This document shows, piece after piece, positions 1,314-11,042 of a stretch of 13,633 nucleotides of DNA. The notes below the pieces were generated by a model. That model saw only the letters and a program-made list of their open reading frames with translations, ran no database searches and was not told the DNA's origin. A program made the position numbers and the translations under genes. Position 1 is the first letter of the stretch. Every line of letters begins with the position of its first letter. Origin of the DNA: an uncultured cyanobacterium (lineage in GTDB: Bacteria > Cyanobacteriota > Vampirovibrionia > Gastranaerophilales > Gastranaerophilaceae). Location: the NCBI GenBank assembly GCA_947073895.1, contig CAMTNN010000022.1, positions 1 through 13,633 on the forward strand. Reading direction: 5' to 3'.

Positions 1314-1378
1314 GGTCTCATCAGTTAACGCCTAACGTTAAGACGGTCAGATTGCACCGTTATCCGACCGTTTCGACC
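1314..1378 (-). ncRNA. Type II hammerhead ribozyme
   Basis: All three stems and the full catalytic core can be read on the minus strand. Order 5' to 3': GGUC (1378-1375, 3' strand of stem II); GAAA (1374-1371); stem III, CGGUCGGAU (1370-1362) pairing with AUCUGACCG (1352-1344), nine pairs with one G-U and a nine-base loop; U1343 and C1342 forming the GUC cleavage site; stem I, UUAACG (1341-1336) with UUAGG loop and CGUUAA (1330-1325); CUGAUGA (1324-1318); and GACC (1317-1314) closing stem II with GGUC. Cleavage is expected between 1342 and 1341. Stem II is the open stem, which defines type II. The stem may extend by UAA (1383-1381) pairing with UUA (1312-1310) across a small internal loop. 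The ribozyme lies between the 87-aa gene and the mor-like gene. Confidence 0.93.
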
Positions 1379-2250: not shown

Positions 2251-3129
2251 TCACACCAATATCTGTTTTACACTTGCTTTTATTACCTCTTCATCCACTT
2301 CAACTTCATTCAATTCAGCAATACGGATTGCTCTGACCAAAAGTTTGGTCAGAACTCTCGTATTGCCTGCACAGAACGCAGAAAGAATGGGGTAGATGTG
2401 TTTGTAATTCGGAAGGAGTGAAGAGATAATAGCTTGTTTATCATCGTCATTTAAAACTTCTAATTTTGCATACATTCCAACCCTAGAGAATAATTGTGCA
2501 TATTGACGTTTTTCGCCTTTTAAATTAGTTATTAAACGTGGCATTCCGACTAATAAAATTCCGACATTTGCTTTGTCATAAATTCTTCTTACCAATTCAA
2601 GTGATTTGTATGGCAAATGCTCTGCCTCATCTATAATTATTAATCGACCTGAAGATTTAAGTTTATCAACAATATCGCTAAACATTGCATGAATTGTGCC
2701 ACATCCGTCATATCCTAATTTTTTGTGTATTTCCGAAAACAAAACTTTCGGAGTATAGCCTAAATCTGCCTCAATTAGAATAACATCAGGATTTTCAATG
2801 GCATATTTTTTAACAGCAAATGTTTTTCCAACACCTGCAACACCACAACAAACTCCAATCTCATTTTCAACGTGGCAAACTTTTGCAATATTGAAAACAT
2901 CCTGTGCGACACTTGTTTCAACAAAATCGATATTAATTCTGCCTTCACGCAATTTTTCAATATCAATAAAATGAGAAACTGCTTCTTCAATTTTTTTGAC
3001 ATTACCTTTATAGTTACCGTTGAGCCATAAGTGTAGTGCTGTTGAAGAAATATTCATTGCTTTTGCAGTATATGCAAAAGTATATTTCTTTTCTTTCATT
3101 AACTTGTGTAATTCATCAATTAAACTCAT
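2251..3129 (-). CDS. MuB-like AAA+ ATPase, transposition target selector
   Basis: This 292-aa protein is the partner ATPase of the transposase. In Mu, MuB binds target DNA as an ATP-dependent filament, delivers it to MuA and gives target immunity. An N-terminal Cro/lambda-like HTH (about 1-45, with AMNISSTALHLWLNGNYKG) precedes the AAA+ domain: Walker A GVAGVGKT (96-103), Walker B LIIIDEAEHL (163-172), a sensor-like region GILLVGMPRL (190-199) and an arginine-containing motif near LFSRVG (213-218). The C-terminal part (240-292) is helical, like the DNA/MuA-binding tail. Length is close to Mu MuB (312 aa). The ribosome site AGGAGGAATT lies over the stop of the transposase, eight bases away, so the two are translationally coupled. 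Confidence 0.93.
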   Translation of the reverse strand: MSLIDELHKLMKEKKYTFAYTAKAMNISSTALHLWLNGNYKGNVKKIEEAVSHFIDIEKLREGRINIDFVETSVAQDVFNIAKVCHVENEIGVCCGVAGVGKTFAVKKYAIENPDVILIEADLGYTPKVLFSEIHKKLGYDGCGTIHAMFSDIVDKLKSSGRLIIIDEAEHLPYKSLELVRRIYDKANVGILLVGMPRLITNLKGEKRQYAQLFSRVGMYAKLEVLNDDDKQAIISSLLPNYKHIYPILSAFCAGNTRVLTKLLVRAIRIAELNEVEVDEEVIKASVKQILV

Positions 3130-3137
3130 AATTCCTC

Positions 3138-5075
3138 CTATATAGCCTTTTTCTCTAAATCTCTACGTTTTTCAGCTTCTGTGAGATATAGTTTTTTCTT
3201 TGGCTGAATTGGGGTAACATATTTTGCAGGAATAGAATTGTTATTCTTTTCCTCTTTTACAACCATATCCATCTTAGTATTAGATATTTTTGATACTTTT
3301 ACGTTTGATTTGAAATCAACTTTATCAAGACTATTAATCAGATTTTCAACAATATCCTCATTTGTAGGATTATATTTTGTCTTAATATATGATTTTAAAA
3401 TTTTCTTTTCTTTATTCTTAATTGCAACTTGTTTTTGGTATTCGCTCTTTTCGATATCCGTATTTGCCAAGAACGATGCAGGCTGGTTTGCATTTGCTTT
3501 ACCTAAATATTCATCTGTTTGAGCATCAAATACCCAAGCTTCTTGGTAAGCGTTAATATCTCTGCGGATATAAACCTTTCTGCCTTTTTCGGTAATCATC
3601 CACTCTGCCCAATAAGAAATTTGCAATTGAGAATCAAAAATGCCATTTCTTTTGATTGTTATATTGTTTGTAGTTCTCATGCAAAACAATTTTAAGGCAT
3701 CTCTGCTGATAACTTTTTTATTGGTAAATTCTTCAGCCCATAACTCGTCAGGACACTTGCCCTGCAAGACTTTGCCTTTTGATGGTTTTTTGTTTAAATA
3801 ATTTTCAATAAACTTATCAAATAAAATTTTAAAATCATCAAATTTCATAATTTGATTGTTTTTAATCTCATTCTTTAATTTTTCAGGTCTTTCGGTAATT
3901 TTGCCTCCACGATACCCAACAAACCCTTTGGAAAGGAATTCTTTTATTTTCAAAAAGTCCCTTTCCACAGGTTTTGTTTGGGCATTATAGGGGAGTGCGA
4001 AATGGATGTGTATGCCGAGATTCTGAATTAAAGAACCACCGTCTTTTTTATGTTTAACTTTTACGATTCTTGTTCTACCACCTGCAAAATCTTTACAGCG
4101 ATAGTCTTTACCATTATCAAGATAAACATCTTCAGGAATTCCAAAATTTAGAACTCCATAATAAAATGCTTGAAAAATATGGTCAGAATTTGGAGAATCT
4201 GCGTGTAAAAACCAACCTAGCCATTTTGAAGTTTTTGCATCTCTGAATACTGTAACCCAAGGGAAACAAACCGTTCCATTGAAATCGACTGCAACATCTA
4301 TTTGAGCATGGTCTGATACCCAACAAGTTCCGGCATTTAAGTTTGAATAATCTCTTGGAACATAATTTGCATATTTTTTATTCCAAGCTGATTCGCCATA
4401 TCTTGCGATAAAAATAGCTTGTTCAGGCACTTCACTTCTTAATCTTCTGATGAAGGTTTTGCTTGTTGGAAAATTACTAACGCAGTCAAATCCCTGCCGT
4501 TTTGCAAATCCTAATGTTATGCTCCAAGCCGTTTCAACAGAAGGAGCACCTTCTCTTAAATAAATACTTTTAAAATATTCAAAGCATTCGTTATCAACTT
4601 TGCTGAAACCTTTTCTATGATTTCCGTAATGGGATAATAAAGCTGTTATTCCACCACAAGAATATTTTTTCAAAGCTATTGTCAGGGAAGAATAGCAAGC
4701 TTTTTTATGAGGATATTTTTGCGACCAGTCTGCAAGAAAATCTATTTTTTCTTGATATGTCATTCCTTCTGTTAGTCTAAACAGTTCCAAATATTTTTCA
4801 GCTTTAGCTTTCATCCATTTTGGAGCATTAGAATATGCCTCTAAACTTTGTTCTACTTCATTTTGTGAAGTCGGTGTAAGGTATGATTTATACTTTTCGA
4901 TATACTTCAAAGGCATAGATGACAACAGAATTTGATAATTTTTATTCCTACCTGCAAGCTCAAATTTACACTTGTATTCTCCGGATTTGCATTTTCTTCT
5001 AATTGTTTCTTTTTTACTATTAGTAAGACTGCAAACTTCTTCAATATTTAACCAAACATCTGAAGTGTTATTCAT
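3138..5075 (-). CDS. MuA-like DDE transposase
   Basis: This 645-aa DDE recombinase (MuA is 663 aa) would cut and join the element ends. Domains: N-terminal winged-helix DNA-binding region (about 5-65, WLNIEEVCSLTNSKKETIRR), end-binding region to about 215, an RNase-H-like catalytic core at about 245-400, and a C-terminal beta-barrel and tail to 645. Candidate catalytic residues are D255 (CWVSDHAQID), D320 (DVYLDNGKDY) and E371 (QTKPVERDF); the last motif matches Mu QAKPVERAF. The protein ends in LEKKAI, like the KKAI end of MuA that ClpX recognises when it remodels the transpososome. The ATG shares one base with the Ner-like stop (TAATG), with AGGAG nine bases upstream. The frame is intact, so it is potentially active. 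Confidence 0.95.
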   Translation of the reverse strand: MNNTSDVWLNIEEVCSLTNSKKETIRRKCKSGEYKCKFELAGRNKNYQILLSSMPLKYIEKYKSYLTPTSQNEVEQSLEAYSNAPKWMKAKAEKYLELFRLTEGMTYQEKIDFLADWSQKYPHKKACYSSLTIALKKYSCGGITALLSHYGNHRKGFSKVDNECFEYFKSIYLREGAPSVETAWSITLGFAKRQGFDCVSNFPTSKTFIRRLRSEVPEQAIFIARYGESAWNKKYANYVPRDYSNLNAGTCWVSDHAQIDVAVDFNGTVCFPWVTVFRDAKTSKWLGWFLHADSPNSDHIFQAFYYGVLNFGIPEDVYLDNGKDYRCKDFAGGRTRIVKVKHKKDGGSLIQNLGIHIHFALPYNAQTKPVERDFLKIKEFLSKGFVGYRGGKITERPEKLKNEIKNNQIMKFDDFKILFDKFIENYLNKKPSKGKVLQGKCPDELWAEEFTNKKVISRDALKLFCMRTTNNITIKRNGIFDSQLQISYWAEWMITEKGRKVYIRRDINAYQEAWVFDAQTDEYLGKANANQPASFLANTDIEKSEYQKQVAIKNKEKKILKSYIKTKYNPTNEDIVENLINSLDKVDFKSNVKVSKISNTKMDMVVKEEKNNNSIPAKYVTPIQPKKKLYLTEAEKRRDLEKKAI

Positions 5076-5275
5076 TATTTAACACTCCTTTTGTTTTTGA
5101 ATAAAATCAGTACGTTTTCTTTCATCCATTGGTCAAATAATTCATTTTTTCGGCTACCTTTAATAAGCATATTTATATAGTTACGAGAGAAGCCTAACTC
5201 TTTCCCTAAGTCACTTTGAGTCATCTTCAATTCTTTTAAACCAATGATATATTTTTGATTTAACGATAGCCTCAT
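5075..5275 (-). CDS. Ner-like small HTH regulator
   Basis: This 66-aa DNA-binding protein is the first gene of the minus-strand early operon. A Cro/Xre-like helix-turn-helix covers about residues 9-45: LKELKMTQSDLGKELGFSRN then YINMLIKGSRK. In Mu, Ner occupies the same place, between repressor and transposase, and turns down early and repressor transcription. The start ATG at 5275 has GGACGGAGAG upstream. The stop overlaps the transposase start by one base. A chance Xre-type regulator unrelated to Ner is possible; the call rests on size, fold and position. Confidence 0.75.
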   Translation of the reverse strand: MRLSLNQKYIIGLKELKMTQSDLGKELGFSRNYINMLIKGSRKNELFDQWMKENVLILFKNKRSVK

Positions 5276-5353: not shown

Positions 5354-5536
5354 TGATTTTAGTAAAATTGTGAACAAAGTAACAAGAAAAATTTAATTCA
5401 TAATTTTAAAATACTGATTAAATAACGCATAAAGATATATTAAAATATGAAGTATTGTAAAGAAGTTGCGAATAGTTTTGTTGAAAATTTGAATAATTTA
5501 TGCAAACATGTTTTTTGAAAAGGAGTGCTATTACAA

Positions 5537-6244
5537 ATGACTATACAAGAGAGATTAAAATCATTTAGAATGCAGGTATCTTCGGGGATTGATGCATTTT
5601 GCGAAGAGCTATTGAAAAACGGATGTAAAATTACCGCACCGACCATTTATGGTTATGAGGGTGGACAAAGACAACCTAGTGTTTCGTATATCAGCGGATT
5701 AATCAAAGTATATGATGCCAATCCTTTTTGGCTTTTACAGGGTGTCGGAGAGATGTTTGTATCTGAAGAAGATAAATCAAAAGCAAATATGCCTGCAAAT
5801 ATTGATTTATCCAACACAGTATTTATTCCTGTTGTAAATATGGATGTATCGGCAAGATTTGGCTCATTAACTGAAGAGATTGAATCAACTAAAGATTTTG
5901 TGTCATTCGGTAAAGATTGGATTAAAAAGCATATAAGTGCAAATGTAAATAATTTGGTTATGTTTACCGTCAGAGGCGATTCAATGGATGGTGGTAACAG
6001 CAGAATTAAAAACGGTTCGCAAATAATAGTAGATACAAGTGTAAAAGAATATATAAATGACGGTATTTATGCAATAAGAATAGAAAACGCCTTATTTGTA
6101 AAACGCCTGCAATATATGCCGGGAAAATTATTAGTTAAAAGCGATAACCCAATATACCAACCATTTGAAGTGGATTTAAAAACTGATAGTGTGAATATTA
6201 TTGGTGCTGTTGTTTATGTTATGAACGACATGTCCTGCATATAA
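5537..6244 (+). CDS. S24-type phage repressor (CI/LexA-like), element immunity repressor
   Basis: This 235-aa repressor is divergent from the early operon, the position of Mu c, but built like a lambdoid CI/LexA protein. The N-terminal domain (1-75) is a variant HTH ending in the LIKVYDANPFWLLQGVGEMF motif typical of phage repressors. The C-terminal domain is an S24 peptidase fold: GDSM places the serine at 149, and the FVKR lysine at 189 completes the Ser-Lys pair. The linker has ARFGS (106-110), which may hold the self-cleavage site. Such repressors cut themselves when RecA filaments form, so DNA damage may induce the element. I chose ATG 5537 because the frame's earlier GTG at 5525 overlaps the ribosome site AGGAG (5521-5525). 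Confidence 0.9.
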   Translation: MTIQERLKSFRMQVSSGIDAFCEELLKNGCKITAPTIYGYEGGQRQPSVSYISGLIKVYDANPFWLLQGVGEMFVSEEDKSKANMPANIDLSNTVFIPVVNMDVSARFGSLTEEIESTKDFVSFGKDWIKKHISANVNNLVMFTVRGDSMDGGNSRIKNGSQIIVDTSVKEYINDGIYAIRIENALFVKRLQYMPGKLLVKSDNPIYQPFEVDLKTDSVNIIGAVVYVMNDMSCI

Positions 6245-6313: not shown

Positions 6314-6589
6314 CTATTTAGCAACTGCTTCTTTAAATTTTTTACCGGCAGAAAATGCAGGAACTGTTTTCGCAGCAATTTTAATTTCCTTGCCTGTTTG
6401 TGGATTTCTTCCTGTTCTTGCTGCTCTTTTTCTTGATTCAAATGTTCCAAATCCAACAAGAGTAACTTTGTCACCCTTTTTTACAGTATTCTCAATAGTT
6501 TCAATAGTTGCGGATAATACTGCTTCAGCCTCTTTTTTAGTTACTTTTGCAGATTTTGAAATTTCTGTTACTAATTCTTCTTTATTCAT
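6314..6589 (-). CDS. hup: HU-family histone-like DNA-binding protein
   Basis: This is a 91-aa HU, the usual length, an abundant dimer that bends DNA. It shows the N-terminal helices (MNKEELVTEISKSAKVTKKE), the dimer core KVTLVGFGTFE (about 42-52), and the DNA-binding arm with conserved GRNPQTG (60-66) and VPAFSAGKKFKE near the end. Sequence is nearest the cyanobacterial HU type by eye. The frame is open to 6709, but ATG 6589 has AGGAGTG six bases upstream and matches all HU starts. It has its own promoter, and a repeat array lies upstream. HU is essential for Mu end synapsis, so if the array marks the element edge, the element carries its own HU. It may equally be the host gene. Confidence 0.96.
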   Translation of the reverse strand: MNKEELVTEISKSAKVTKKEAEAVLSATIETIENTVKKGDKVTLVGFGTFESRKRAARTGRNPQTGKEIKIAAKTVPAFSAGKKFKEAVAK

Positions 6590-6643: not shown

Positions 6644-6667
6644 ATTAGAAACATTTATTAAAATAAA

Positions 6668-6795
6668 TGTCGGACATATAAATTGATAATTATCAAAAAT
6701 GTCAGACATTTAGTTTGATAAATTCTTCCCTTAATATCATTCAAATTGAAAATTTATCAATCTATGTGTCAGACATTATCAATTTATGTGTCTAG
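6668..6795. repeat. Four-copy inverted/direct repeat array, candidate transposase end-binding sites
   Basis: Four related units of about 21-24 bp occur. Two on the plus strand are at 6668-6690 and 6700-6723, and two on the minus strand at 6752-6775 and 6775-6795. Three units begin with the palindrome TGTCNGACA, and all contain T-rich DNA ending TTGATAA. The outermost unit keeps only GACACAT plus ATTGATAA. The two pairs face each other across 28 bp. A perfect 14-bp palindrome TTGATAATTATCAA (6683-6696) overlaps the first unit. Arrays of about 22-bp sites at the ends are what MuA-type transposases bind, which fits the edge position. The alternative is operators for HU or another regulator. Confidence 0.75.
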
Positions 6796-6819
6796 TTATA
6801 ATAATTTTAATAAATAAAA

Positions 6820-6841
6820 AAAGAGTCCTTTCGGACTCTTT
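6820..6841 (-). terminator. Rho-independent terminator of tRNA-Ser
   Basis: A 9-bp stem, AAAGAGTCC (6820-6828) with GGACTCTTT (6833-6841), has a four-base loop. Read on the minus strand it is followed by a run of T (from 6820 down to 6815), directly after tRNA-Ser. It would also stop plus-strand transcripts weakly. Confidence 0.88.
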
Positions 6842-6846
6842 CTAAA

Positions 6847-6936
6847 TGGAGGAGGAGGTGGGATTCGAACCCACGGAACACTCGCATGTTCGACGGTTTT
6901 CAAGACCGCTCCAATCAACCGCTCTGGCACTCCTCC
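6847..6936 (-). tRNA. tRNA-Ser (anticodon UGA), with encoded CCA
   Basis: The cloverleaf is complete on the minus strand: acceptor GGAGGAG with CUCCUCC (7 bp), D-stem CCA/UGG, anticodon stem GCGGU/ACCGU around loop CUUGAAA (anticodon UGA), a long class II variable arm (GAACA/UGUUC), T-stem GUGGG/CCCAC with loop UUCGAAU, and CCA at 6849-6847. The long variable arm and UGA anticodon make it serine, reading UCA and UCG-type codons. The discriminator base by this pairing is U, where serine tRNAs of bacteria normally have G. It is flanked by its own promoter and terminator. Confidence 0.97.
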
Positions 6937-6963
6937 AGAATTATTTAATTGGTTTGCTTTTTT

Positions 6964-7124: not shown

Positions 7125-7733
7125 ATGTACGACTATGTAAAAGGATTTTTAACCGATAAACGCAAGACTTCCAAAGGCACTTTTGCAACGATTGAAACCT
7201 ATGGTGTTGGGTATTTATTAGAAATAACCGAACAAGATTTTATTAATTTTAATACATCCGAAGATGTTTCTCAAAAATTCTATACTTCACTTTTACATAG
7301 AGAAGACTCAATGAACCTTTATGGTTTCTCCAACAAAGAAACCAGAGACATATTCCAAATTCTTTTATCAGTTTCCGGAGTCGGCGCAAAAATGGCAATT
7401 GCACTGCTTAATGAATTTGATGCATGCGACCTGATTTCTTTTGTAATTGACGGAAACTTCAAAGAACTTACCCGCGCTAAAGGTGTTGGTCCAAAGCTTG
7501 CACAAAAGATTATTCTTGAACTCAAAGATAAACTGATGAAAACCGAACTACCTAAATCAAACGGTGTTCTGCCACAAAATCAGGCAATTTCCGACGCTCA
7601 ATCAATTATGCTTTCTCTCGGGTATGATAACAAAGAAATCGAAGACGCTTTATCAAAAGTAATATCTACAGTCGAGGATTCTTCGAACCCGGAAGAAATC
7701 TTAAGAAAGGCTCTAACATGTTTATCGATGTAA
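7125..7733 (+). CDS. ruvA: Holliday junction DNA helicase subunit RuvA
   Basis: This 202-aa protein has the usual RuvA length (about 200). RuvA tetramers hold the Holliday junction and load the RuvB motor for branch migration in recombinational repair. Domain I (1-62) is an OB fold opening MYDYVKGFLTDKR with YGVGYLLEI. Domain II (about 70-135) has two helix-hairpin-helix motifs: LLSVSGVGAKMAIALL (about 83-98) and LTRAKGVGPKLAQKIILELKDKL (about 113-135). Domain III (about 150-202), which binds RuvB, has DAQSIMLSLGYDNKEIEDAL. The start ATG 7125 has AGGGA upstream and gives the standard N-terminus. It is alone here, with its own promoter and a long hairpin terminator; ruvB and ruvC are not adjacent. 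Confidence 0.98.
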   Translation: MYDYVKGFLTDKRKTSKGTFATIETYGVGYLLEITEQDFINFNTSEDVSQKFYTSLLHREDSMNLYGFSNKETRDIFQILLSVSGVGAKMAIALLNEFDACDLISFVIDGNFKELTRAKGVGPKLAQKIILELKDKLMKTELPKSNGVLPQNQAISDAQSIMLSLGYDNKEIEDALSKVISTVEDSSNPEEILRKALTCLSM

Positions 7734-7816: not shown

Positions 7817-7858
7817 ATTTTGACCAGTTTTAGTATAAATGAATGAAAAGGGTTGTTT

Positions 7859-9442
7859 ATGAACTTTAATATTCCTAAATTTAATATCACTCCGTTTCAC
7901 CAAATTAATTTTAAAGGTGATGATAAAAAACCTTCAACATTTTCCCCAAAACCTATTCCAATGGACTCGTTTGAATTATCAGTCGGATATGTAAATGACC
8001 TGCACGGTCAAACAAATAATATGATGCGTATTTTATCCGGTATCAAAGGCGATTTAAGACTTTCAGCAGGGGACAATGATATCGGAGATGAAAAAAATCA
8101 AGGTGTTAGAAAAGCTACAACAGCATTTTTAAACAAAGCTAAAATCAGAGCTTCTGCTCTTGGAAACCATGAACTCGATACAACACAAAAAGATTGTATC
8201 GATGCAATAAACAATTTTAATGGCGATATGCTGTCTATAAATTATAAAAAATCACCACTTGAAGATCAGGATGATGATGAAATAGAAAAACTGGGTCGGG
8301 CAGAACTGGACAAACATATAAAAAAATCAACCATAGTAGAAGTTAAAGGAGAAAAAATCGGATTAATCGGCGCATCTCCTATGGATATGTTTGAAAGACT
8401 GACTCATCCAAATTATTACACTGATAGCTCAATAGATTCCCTTGAAGACACTATAGAAGAAATTCAGGAAGAAGCTGATGAACTTACAGAAAAAGGTGTT
8501 AACAAAATATTCTTACTTTCTCACCTTGGAAATAAGCGTGATAAAATTGTAGCGCAAAACACAAAAGGAATTGATGTAATAATTGGCGGTCATACTCATG
8601 AATTGATTCGTGATATTAAAGAAAATGAAAATCTGTTTTATTCAAAATCCGGAGAACCGGTTATTATTACAGAAGCTGGTCGTGATGGAAACTATTTCGG
8701 ACTTTTAAATCTGACATTTGACAAAAAAGGTGTTATAAAACAAGCTCAAAATAATATTGCCGAAACAAGATTATTTTCTAAAAACATGATTAATCAATAT
8801 CTGTTTGACACTTTACTTGGCAAGCCTGAAATTGTAGGTATTGTTGAACAAGCACCACCTCCGCCTCAATCTTTGTCAGATGAAAACCCTCACGCAAACT
8901 TTGCTTGCGATATTCTCAAAGAAAAAACTGATTCTGATATCGCATTATGGCATCACAGCGGCGTAAGGAACTTTTTCCATGAAGGAATTGTTGATTCAAG
9001 CGATGTAAAAGATATGGCACCTTTCTTGGATTATGTTGTAACAGCAAATGTTTCTGAAAAAGTCATTGTAGATATGTTTAAACACGCAATAGAAAATACT
9101 TATAAAAATCCGGCTCATAAACCGGGATTGGTAGCGGTTTCAGGCCTTGAATATTCTGTAAATCCTGAAAAAAGAACCCTTACCTCTATGAGCTTTATTG
9201 ACAACAATGGCAACAAGGAAATTATAGATGTTGATAACCCTAGAAAAGATAAATTATACAAAGTCGTAACAGATGAATTTTTAATGTCAGCTGGTGCTGA
9301 TTATGACATTCTAGCTCAGGAAGAAGAATATATTAACAAATTCCCTTATGATAAAGATTTTTTAATATGTGAATACTTAAAAGAACACAAAGAACCTATC
9401 GTTATCAATCATTCAGGACGTATAACTTACGAAAACAATTAA
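7859..9442 (+). CDS. 5'-nucleotidase/UshA-like metallophosphoesterase, first tandem copy
   Basis: This 527-aa protein belongs to the UshA/CpdB family, which removes phosphate from nucleotides or opens 2',3'-cyclic nucleotides using two metal ions. The metallophosphoesterase domain (about 36-300) has all ligands: DLHG (47-50), GDN (71-73), GNHE (102-105), SHLG (221-224) and GGHTHE (243-248). The C-terminal nucleotide-binding domain (about 345-527) has HHSGVR (365-370) where many members have an NxGGIR-type motif, and GLVAVSGLEYSV. There is no signal peptide, although most family members are secreted; the first 35 residues are polar and end in a proline-rich linker. I chose ATG 7859 with AAAAGGG six bases upstream; the frame's earlier TTG (7853) is less likely. 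Its paralogue starts 16 bases after its stop. Confidence 0.93.
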   Translation: MNFNIPKFNITPFHQINFKGDDKKPSTFSPKPIPMDSFELSVGYVNDLHGQTNNMMRILSGIKGDLRLSAGDNDIGDEKNQGVRKATTAFLNKAKIRASALGNHELDTTQKDCIDAINNFNGDMLSINYKKSPLEDQDDDEIEKLGRAELDKHIKKSTIVEVKGEKIGLIGASPMDMFERLTHPNYYTDSSIDSLEDTIEEIQEEADELTEKGVNKIFLLSHLGNKRDKIVAQNTKGIDVIIGGHTHELIRDIKENENLFYSKSGEPVIITEAGRDGNYFGLLNLTFDKKGVIKQAQNNIAETRLFSKNMINQYLFDTLLGKPEIVGIVEQAPPPPQSLSDENPHANFACDILKEKTDSDIALWHHSGVRNFFHEGIVDSSDVKDMAPFLDYVVTANVSEKVIVDMFKHAIENTYKNPAHKPGLVAVSGLEYSVNPEKRTLTSMSFIDNNGNKEIIDVDNPRKDKLYKVVTDEFLMSAGADYDILAQEEEYINKFPYDKDFLICEYLKEHKEPIVINHSGRITYENN

Positions 9443-9458: not shown

Positions 9459-11042
9459 ATGAATCTAAAAATATCCCCATACAATTTCAACCAATATAAC
9501 TATTCATTCAAAAGTTCAAATCCAAACAAATTAGAAAAACAACCGAAGAATGATACATTTGAGCTGTCCGTCGGCTATGTAAATGATATTCACGGTTCGA
9601 CAAATAATATGATGCGTATTTTATCCGGACTGAAAGGGGACTTAAAACTTTCTGCGGGCGATAATTATGTAGGAGATGAAAACAATCAGGCGGTTCATAA
9701 AGCAACTGTACAGTTTTTGAACCTTGCCGATATAAAAGCAAGTGCTCTTGGAAACCATGAACTTGATACTACACAAAAAGACTGCGTTGATATTACAAAC
9801 AGTTTCAAAGGTGAATTGCTTTCTGCAAACTTTAATCAAGAACTGTTAGAAAATGAAAATATTGATGATATTAAAAAGTTTGATCGCTCAGATTTAAAAT
9901 CAGTTATCAAAAAATCAACTATCGTAGAAGTAAAAGGTGAAAAAATCGGATTAATCGGCGCATCTCCAATAGATATGTTTTCACGAGCTACACATCCGGA
10001 TTACCATACAGACTGCTCAATTGATGAACTGGAAGATACTATTGAAGATATTCAACAAGAAGCAAACAGACTTAAAGAACAAGGTATTAATAAAATATTT
10101 TTACTTTCCCACCTTGGTAACAAAACAGATAAAATAGTAGCAGAAAATACCGACGGAATTGATGTAATAATTGGTGGTCATACTCATGAACTTATTAAAG
10201 ATATTAAAGAAGGTGAAAACTTACTTTATTCAGAATCAGGTGAGCCGGTTATTATTACTGAAGCCGGAAAAAACGGAGTTCATTTTGGAGAATTAAATCT
10301 AACTTTTGATAAAGATGGTGTCATTACAAAAGCACAAAATAACATAGGAAAAACAAGAGATTTCCAAAAAAACCTAATTAATCAATACATCTTTGATTCA
10401 ATTTTAGGCAAACCGGAAAAAATCGGATATATCAAATATGCACCAGAACCCGTAACTGATTTAACAAAAGAAAATCCGCATGCAAACTTTATGTGCGATG
10501 CAATGCGTTATGAATTAAATGCAGAAATCGGATTATGGAATAACAGCGGAACTAGAGACTTTTTCCGAGAGGGCGTAATTGATTCAAGTGATATTAAAGA
10601 TATCGCACCGTTTGCAGATAAAATTTCCGTTGCAGATGTTCCTGAAAAAACTCTCGTAAACATGTTCAAACGCGCTGTAAGAGAAACATACACAACTCAA
10701 GGAAACAAACCTGGACTTATAGCTGTTTCAGGATTAAAATATTCAGTCAACCCTGAAAAAGGAATCTTAACAGGTATGACTTTCGTAGACAACGAAGGTT
10801 TAGAGCACAAAATAGACATCGATAATCCTCGTGAAGACAAAACATACAAAATCGTTGCAGACTCATTTGTTATGTCCTGGGGCGGTGATTTAGACATTTT
10901 AGCTCCTAAAGAAGAATGTACAGAATACCCGTTCAACAAAGATTTTGTAACCTGCGAATATATAAAACACCTTAACAAACCTATCGAAATCAACCAAACC
11001 GGTCGCATTATTTTTCAACAAGGGGCGGACGACATTTTATAA
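9459..11042 (+). CDS. 5'-nucleotidase/UshA-like metallophosphoesterase, second tandem copy
   Basis: This paralogue of the preceding gene is exactly the same length (527 aa), with roughly 60% identity by eye and no large gaps. All metal-site motifs are kept: DIHG (43-46), GDN (67-69), GNHE (98-101), SHLG (217-220) and GGHTHE (239-244). The substrate-loop motif differs: NNSGTR (361-366) replaces HHSGVR, and the inter-domain proline stretch of copy 1 (APPPPQ) is APEPVT. Different substrates or regulation are therefore likely. Again there is no signal peptide; the N-terminus (MNLKISPYNFNQYNYSFKSS) resembles copy 1 in ending with F-K before the domain. AGGAAAAT precedes ATG 9459. The two genes are probably one transcript. 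Confidence 0.93.
   Translation: MNLKISPYNFNQYNYSFKSSNPNKLEKQPKNDTFELSVGYVNDIHGSTNNMMRILSGLKGDLKLSAGDNYVGDENNQAVHKATVQFLNLADIKASALGNHELDTTQKDCVDITNSFKGELLSANFNQELLENENIDDIKKFDRSDLKSVIKKSTIVEVKGEKIGLIGASPIDMFSRATHPDYHTDCSIDELEDTIEDIQQEANRLKEQGINKIFLLSHLGNKTDKIVAENTDGIDVIIGGHTHELIKDIKEGENLLYSESGEPVIITEAGKNGVHFGELNLTFDKDGVITKAQNNIGKTRDFQKNLINQYIFDSILGKPEKIGYIKYAPEPVTDLTKENPHANFMCDAMRYELNAEIGLWNNSGTRDFFREGVIDSSDIKDIAPFADKISVADVPEKTLVNMFKRAVRETYTTQGNKPGLIAVSGLKYSVNPEKGILTGMTFVDNEGLEHKIDIDNPREDKTYKIVADSFVMSWGGDLDILAPKEECTEYPFNKDFVTCEYIKHLNKPIEINQTGRIIFQQGADDIL

Follow-up and report, generated by a model that had tools for sequence, protein, structure and literature searches.

Type II hammerhead ribozymes are reported to be common in bacteria, where they form clusters that flank prophage genes (Perreault et al. 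2011, PMC3088659). In the same report, activity was seen for 14 of the 18 consensus hammerheads that were tested, and cleavage in vitro for three tandem arrangements from prophages, one of which also cleaved in E. coli. The strongest associations described for bacterial hammerheads and twisters are those with Mu-like phage genes (PMC10085705), and the role of such ribozymes has been called open in a review (PMC6155905). As to the fate of the products, a ribozyme-made 5'-OH end was described to speed decay via RNase J1 in B. subtilis (PMC3328962). The DNA analyzed here (the window, 13,633 nucleotides from an uncultured cyanobacterium of the Gastranaerophilales) carries a ribozyme of this type inside the operon of a Mu-like element, at a place that is kept in related elements.

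The hammerhead and its Mu-like element

On the minus strand of the window, a complete type II hammerhead extends from 1378 to 1314, as evidenced by sequence reading, by covariation and by the covariance model R1. In the direction of the transcript, the first strand of stem II (1378-1375), which forms four pairs with 1317-1314 (GGUC/GACC), is followed by the core bases GAAA (1374-1371), by stem III with nine pairs including one G-U (CGGUCGGAU/AUCUGACCG, 1370-1362 and 1352-1344), by U1343 and C1342 of the cleavage triplet GUC, by stem I with six pairs (UUAACG/CGUUAA, 1341-1336 and 1330-1325), and by the core bases CUGAUGA (1324-1318). The copy thus has the CUGANGA and GAAA elements and a UH cleavage site, and of its three stems, I and III are closed by loops and II is open, a type II order that was confirmed by script. 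From the hammerhead core, cleavage is predicted between C1342 and U1341, and such a cut would leave a leader of 54 bases. The ribozyme begins two bases past the stop codon (1383-1381) of an 87-aa gene, and a spacer of 26 bases with a Shine-Dalgarno-like AGGAG (1288-1313) lies between it and the start of the Mor-like gene at 1287, which together makes an intergenic gap of 93 bases (1288-1380). The original prediction of a complete type II hammerhead on this strand therefore stands with every named base in place and with pairing that is kept in relatives, and direct reading of the sequence also bears out its stem lengths, its gap, its place of cleavage and its leader.

Hammerhead-like motifs of some kind, with three pairs in each stem, occurred in 40 of 1000 dinucleotide shuffles of the window, and stems of at least 6, 4 and 6 pairs occurred in none. 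An origin by chance was rejected on these grounds and because related loci contain 61 such motifs, versus one after shuffling. The covariance-model check with known hammerhead models, which had been suggested along with the prediction, turned out less favorable: a Rfam search of the whole window at E<=1 gave no hammerhead, and RF02276 matched only when 130 bases were searched, with 19.4 bits under a Rfam cutoff of 37. As the core features are all present, this low score is to be regarded as a limit of the model's reach. A Rfam search at the cutoff likewise returned no hammerhead for ten motif-bearing loci, seven of which have the motif directly before mor. Model R1, whose seed includes the window copy, scores that copy at 93.2 bits. 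Most shuffles of the 72-base ribozyme stretch fold less well than the stretch itself (z -2.46; 5 of 200 reach its value). The window copy has its energy minimum in a different hairpin, which is favored by 1.5 kcal/mol over the hammerhead fold as written. Such a competing fold is preferred in two of 19 aligned sequences (the window and L033), and the other 17 fold as hammerheads.

The early region of phage Mu has the gene order c, ner, A, B, gemA, mor. The operon of the window, on the minus strand, consists of genes for a small HTH protein (5075-5275; Pfam HTH_3, E 5.2e-6), a MuA-like transposase (3138-5075; Pfam DDE_2, HTH_Tnp_Mu_2 and Mu-transpos_C; phrog_310), a MuB-like AAA ATPase (2251-3129; phrog_296 DNA transposition protein, E 1.6e-75; AAA_22) and GemA (1686-2126; Pfam GemA, E 3.4e-21), then the 87-aa gene (1381-1644; an open reading frame with no Pfam match and no assigned function), the ribozyme, and the Mor-like transcription activator gene (997-1287, 96 aa; phrog_836 late transcriptional activator, E 3.4e-6). 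The small HTH gene presumably occupies the place of Mu Ner. A gene for an S24 peptidase-type repressor (5525-6244, plus strand; Pfam Peptidase_S24, E 1.3e-18; phrog_4) diverges from the operon, and the MuA, MuB, GemA, Mor-like and repressor genes are thus found in Mu order. The window Mor-like protein has no Pfam match at 0.001 and is Mor-like by PHROG only; on the basis of phrog_836, the predicted placement of the ribozyme before a Mor-like gene holds.

None of the eight genes tested with Pfam and PHROGs between 967 and 6850 is a virion (head, tail) gene, and the flanks of the element are cellular, with an ABC transporter gene ending at 967 on one side and a tRNA (6850-6936) and RuvA (7125-7733) on the other, beyond which 5'-nucleotidase-type, LytR-type and nitroreductase genes follow. 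With no virion genes seen and cellular genes on both sides, the element shows no middle or late operon. It had been suggested that self-cleavage separates the transposition genes from a middle-gene switch, and in view of this gene content that role is unproven. Relatives with 60-66% transposase identity include L033, whose element is flanked by dTDP-sugar epimerase and aldo/keto reductase genes, and L031, with type I restriction genes downstream. More distant relatives such as L067, with baseplate and tail fiber genes, and L053, with an endolysin and a tail-like gene, are phages. A transposase scan of viral contigs for close relatives found nothing.

No convincing terminal inverted repeats and no shared inverted repeats were found. 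Where the left end of the element may lie is suggested by several TGTCNGACA-type repeats with inverted arms (6667-6793); by eye, they resemble sequence left of L032, and they are possibly transposase-binding sites. Between the repressor and these repeats lies an HU-type DNA-binding gene (6314-6589, minus strand; phrog_379, E 5.6e-34) that may belong to the element. Farther out, two tandem genes of 529 and 527 aa (7853-9442 and 9459-11042, plus strand), each of which codes for a 5'-nucleotidase C-terminal domain and a calcineurin-like phosphoesterase domain, represent a duplication.

Conservation, covariation and spread

The window was scanned together with 52 loci (L031-L082) around same-class transposase relatives, which were taken from the upper part of the matches listed. 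With Mor defined here, and for the 20 further loci below, as a match to our own profile built from five seeds, gemA and a Mor-like gene lie within 1.5 kb of each other in 28 of the 53 loci, and 27 of these 28 carry the ribozyme, so that the suggested search for the same motif before mor in related elements came out in favor of the original prediction. The strict scan recognized 25 of them and missed L059 and L065, in which stem II is preceded by one additional U; these two were found by eye. In L034, which is counted among the 27, an insert at 6740-6950 (oriented), palindrome-like by eye, interrupts stem I. The strict scan detected no ribozyme in the 20 loci with neither gemA nor mor, and none was found in L073, where mor is 4 kb away, or in L075, where the contig ends; L049 has gemA and one ribozyme, and its contig ends before mor. 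The ribozyme must be dispensable, since L037 and L074 have mor right after the transposase with neither gemA nor ribozyme, and L040, as the only such locus of the 28, has gemA and mor without it. Among 13 Mor-like proteins tested with Pfam or PHROGs, Pfam Mor scored just above its cutoff in L164 and L256 and below it in L033, L034, L037, L053, L153, L162 and L253, and it had no match in L032, L121 and L168.

For the analysis of covariation, 19 of the 27 distinct sequences could be aligned without gaps, and eight were dropped for length or register (L035, both copies of L059, L065, and short-loop copies of L038, L039, L053 and L071). All 380 base-pair cells of the 19 aligned sequences pair, and double-sided changes occur in 10 of the 20 pairs, which is the covariation of stems in homologues on which the prediction had been made to depend. 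The covariation score of 0.361 compares with 0.113 in shuffles, none of 500 reaching it, and with at most 0.063 in slid controls; further pair types number 15 versus 12.5, a value reached by 25 of 500 shuffles. Core positions are unchanged across these copies except for N7. Stem II is invariant in this set and varies in distant loci, where pairing is kept with one mismatch in L125. Judged from these alignments, the comparison of relatives is decisive for the hammerhead identity despite the low Rfam score. The stem III loop (UAAC.GUGCAA, alignment A2 columns 18-27) is nearly constant though a hammerhead does not need it, and it is missing in some copies.

The surroundings of the ribozyme are also regular. 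Of 71 contexts, which were freed only of exact duplicates and are not independent, 66 have an upstream frame, and in 65 of these the distance from its stop to the ribozyme is -1 to 11 bases; a Shine-Dalgarno-anchored start follows in 56 of the 71, at a median of 22 bases. The short gaps behind the stop could be explained by compact genomes alone. All 71 contexts have U as the first base of the loop I pentamer, 61 of them fit U-N-A-N-G, and in 70 the base preceding stem II is A. The published pseudoknot between loop I and the 3' tail was rejected as a general feature: it is mostly absent, with a complementarity of 4 bp in 6 of the 71 contexts versus 7.4 expected by permutation. Matches of 5 bp number five versus about two (p 0.008 and 0.022) and occur in L053, L054, L064, L070 and L113. 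These features point to another, non-Watson-Crick contact.

Of the 27 gemA-mor loci with a ribozyme, 11 carry two, whose starts are 353-389 bases apart, and one small, variable gene sits between them, which differs even among similar loci. L054 and L053 are 98% identical above the first ribozyme of L053 and 97% below its second (300 bases compared), L072 and L071 are likewise 99% and 98% identical, and both pairs differ by the inter-ribozyme segment. These differences imply that genes have been lost or gained at ribozyme copies, which served as joints.

Among 382 genomes of the class, a covariance-model search with stricter filters, by which weak matches may be missed, gave 63 matches in 42 genomes, one of which (L132, 19.5 bits) was judged false. 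In 16 of 20 further loci the match lies directly before a Mor-like gene, if L129 with undetermined bases inside its match is counted; the remaining four are three matches in another phage type and one false match. In that other phage type (L126, L127 and L128), related hammerheads precede a small gene instead of mor, and stem II is changed to TTCC/GGAA and ATCC/GGAT.

A wider set based on GemA alignment comprised the best 80 of 170 viral loci, 65 genome loci and five phage records, in sum 150 loci with 1.53 Mb, and Mor was here defined as a match to an iterated profile. The script found 61 type II motifs in 48 of the 150 loci, each on the same strand as the query match, versus one in one shuffle; it found none in the five phage records, in two of which the model gave weak matches. 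The ribozyme is present in 49 of the 100 loci of this set that have gemA and mor, a tally that is not independent of the others because genome loci of different sets overlap (e.g. L214 and L031). The script accounts for 45 of the 49, the model for three (L216, L246, and L136 with a mismatched pair) and Rfam for one (L248); L213 is the interrupted one. All 55 gemA-mor loci without script match (34 + 21) had been searched with model R1 and 37 of them with Rfam. When the set is split at a GemA score of 158 bits, a value chosen after the list was seen, the ribozyme occurs in 43 of the 48 loci at or above it, with none shown in four, and in 6 of the 52 loci with more distant GemA, with none shown in 46. 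It adjoins mor in L153, L164, L168 and L256, in the latter case 79 bases ahead, and in L162 and L253 it lies between gemA and mor but ahead of another gene. Many of the loci are labeled as Gastranaerophilales, L253 as Nitrospirae and L248 as Deltaproteobacteria. In two human faecal phage records (L281 at 241-305, L282 at 3828-3893 and 4480-4537), the model also matched weakly, with 22-28 bits, ahead of the transposase; these matches have an extra base before stem II, and one has a changed core base.

Possible function of the ribozyme

What could such a ribozyme do at this place? From the sequences, we consider it fairly probable that it is a cis-acting RNA-processing site, probably acting co-transcriptionally, that frees a mor message which is separate from the upstream genes and probably longer-lived. 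In the early transcript of the Mu-like element, the RNA that separates the last accessory gene from mor would form the type II hammerhead, and the transcript would cut itself between C1342 and U1341. The upstream RNA would then carry a 2',3'-cyclic phosphate at the end of stem III, the mor message would start with stem I and a 5'-OH, and each of the new ends would have a hairpin, since it is stem II that is open. RNase E disfavours 5'-OH ends. If a host has RNase E/G and no recognized RNase J, decay should not readily start from a paired 5'-OH end, so that the mor message would gain a life of its own, probably a longer one, and its expression would be separated from that of the upstream genes.

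The enzymes of the hosts agree with this view. RNase E/G is found in all of 19 genomes, the RNase J C-terminal domain in none, and TIGR00649 exceeds its cutoff in none, with weak sub-cutoff matches in four; RtcB is found in five, which do not include the window's own genome (84% complete). This survey, together with the stem I hairpin predicted at the start of the cleaved leader, favors a stabilized separate mor message over glmS-like decay or circularization. Over its full 84 bases, the leader has no more stable fold than shuffled versions (z 0.11), and in the predicted fold part of the Shine-Dalgarno-like site is paired. With 20 promoter-like sites versus 20.9 in shuffles and three terminator-like sites versus 2.1, there is no excess that could reveal a separate mor promoter. 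Points against a processing site are the competing fold of the window copy, the loci that do without the ribozyme, the RNase J1 decay described for B. subtilis, and the fact that no middle or late genes explain why the timing of mor would matter in the window element.

Which alternatives have to be weighed against the proposed processing site? Cleavage might attenuate, i.e. lower or delay, mor expression as in the case of glmS, either because the 5'-OH message is degraded or because it is uncoupled from upstream translation. In B. subtilis, RNase J1 reportedly degrades the 5'-OH product of glmS (PMC3328962), the upstream stop adjoins stem II, so that a cut would end translational coupling to mor, and the partial pairing of the Shine-Dalgarno-like bases would fit as well. 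We nevertheless regard attenuation as unlikely, since RNase J was recognized neither in the own genome, at its 84% completeness, nor in 18 relatives (apart from the four weak matches), since the leader is predicted to start with a hairpin, and since most contexts have a Shine-Dalgarno-like site of their own before the start codon. A more elaborate variant of translational control is that the group represents a distinct hammerhead subfamily, mostly without the usual pseudoknot, that works as a translation-gated switch. Ribosomes that end the upstream gene would cover stem II and GAAA at the stop codon, and the cut would free mor only when upstream translation falls, which would link activator output to the early programme. 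We offer this switch as a rather doubtful idea.

The paired ribozymes raise the question of whether the RNA of the small gene between them is released as a unit and perhaps circularized by a ligase such as RtcB. Published hammerhead clusters also flank prophage genes (PMC3088659), and the 11 two-ribozyme loci with their spacing of 353-389 bases would suit such a release, but the window has only one ribozyme, RtcB is confined to five of the 19 genomes and absent from the own one, and Perreault et al. report that they detected neither spliced nor circular products (PMC3088659); single-gene RNA release is therefore improbable. The difference of L053 and L054, and of L071 and L072, by the segment between the ribozymes, with 97-99% identity outside, and the variability of the gene in that slot among similar loci could also mean that the repeats mark a module boundary at the DNA level and serve mainly as homology for cassette exchange, with ribozyme activity being secondary. 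Repeats kept for recombination should, however, conserve sequence and not pairing, whereas the stems change while their pairing stays complete, the core of the 19 aligned copies shows no change besides N7, and the motif is kept in single-copy loci too, all of which makes a mere boundary function quite improbable. That the resemblance is due to chance, or that the window copy is an inactive relic, appears very improbable to us. The sub-threshold Rfam score, the slightly favored other fold and the fact that the element may be a remnant could be taken in this sense, but core and all pairs are intact in the window copy, the family is conserved, and stems of this kind did not arise in any of the 1000 shuffles.

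Comparison with known systems

The element resembles the early region of phage Mu in having the same divergent repressor and the same small HTH, MuA-, MuB-, GemA- and Mor-like genes in order, and differs from Mu in that it lies, without virion genes, between cellular flanks. The ribozyme before mor is a feature read in the window element and its relatives. The glmS ribozyme, as described (PMC3328962), is likewise a self-cleaving RNA directly before a gene that yields a 5'-OH message, but it has a different fold and depends on a ligand, and its decay enzyme RNase J1 was not recognized in the hosts studied here.

With the type II hammerheads described for RF02276 (PMC3088659), the present group shares the core, the three stems with an open stem II, the prophage setting and the frequent clustering around single genes. 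The majority of the published ones are described with a pseudoknot between loop I and the 3' tail (PMC3088659), which is mostly absent here; instead, the present group has the initial U of the loop I pentamer and the A before stem II. The score of the window copy falls below the RF02276 cutoff, and this cutoff passes over the present hammerhead group. The enrichment of hammerheads and twisters near Mu-like genes (PMC10085705) concerns the same gene neighborhood; in the present loci the site is a fixed one, ahead of mor and shortly after the stop codon of the preceding gene. Among the literature matches listed, there was no published ribozyme link to gemA, DUF1018, mor or a middle operon regulator, the original papers on Mu-like enrichment being outside that search, and, among those listed for Gastranaerophilales prophages, nothing on such a ribozyme.

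Already published are thus, as far as these sources describe it, bacterial type II hammerheads, their prophage-gene clusters and their enrichment near Mu-like genes (PMC3088659, PMC10085705). What is added here is the fixed place before mor, the loop features with a mostly absent pseudoknot, and the cassette difference between ribozymes, according to which genes can be gained or lost at joints formed by ribozyme copies. A ribozyme that is kept at one site before one regulator while its stems change freely offers a concrete place to test the function of bacterial ribozymes.
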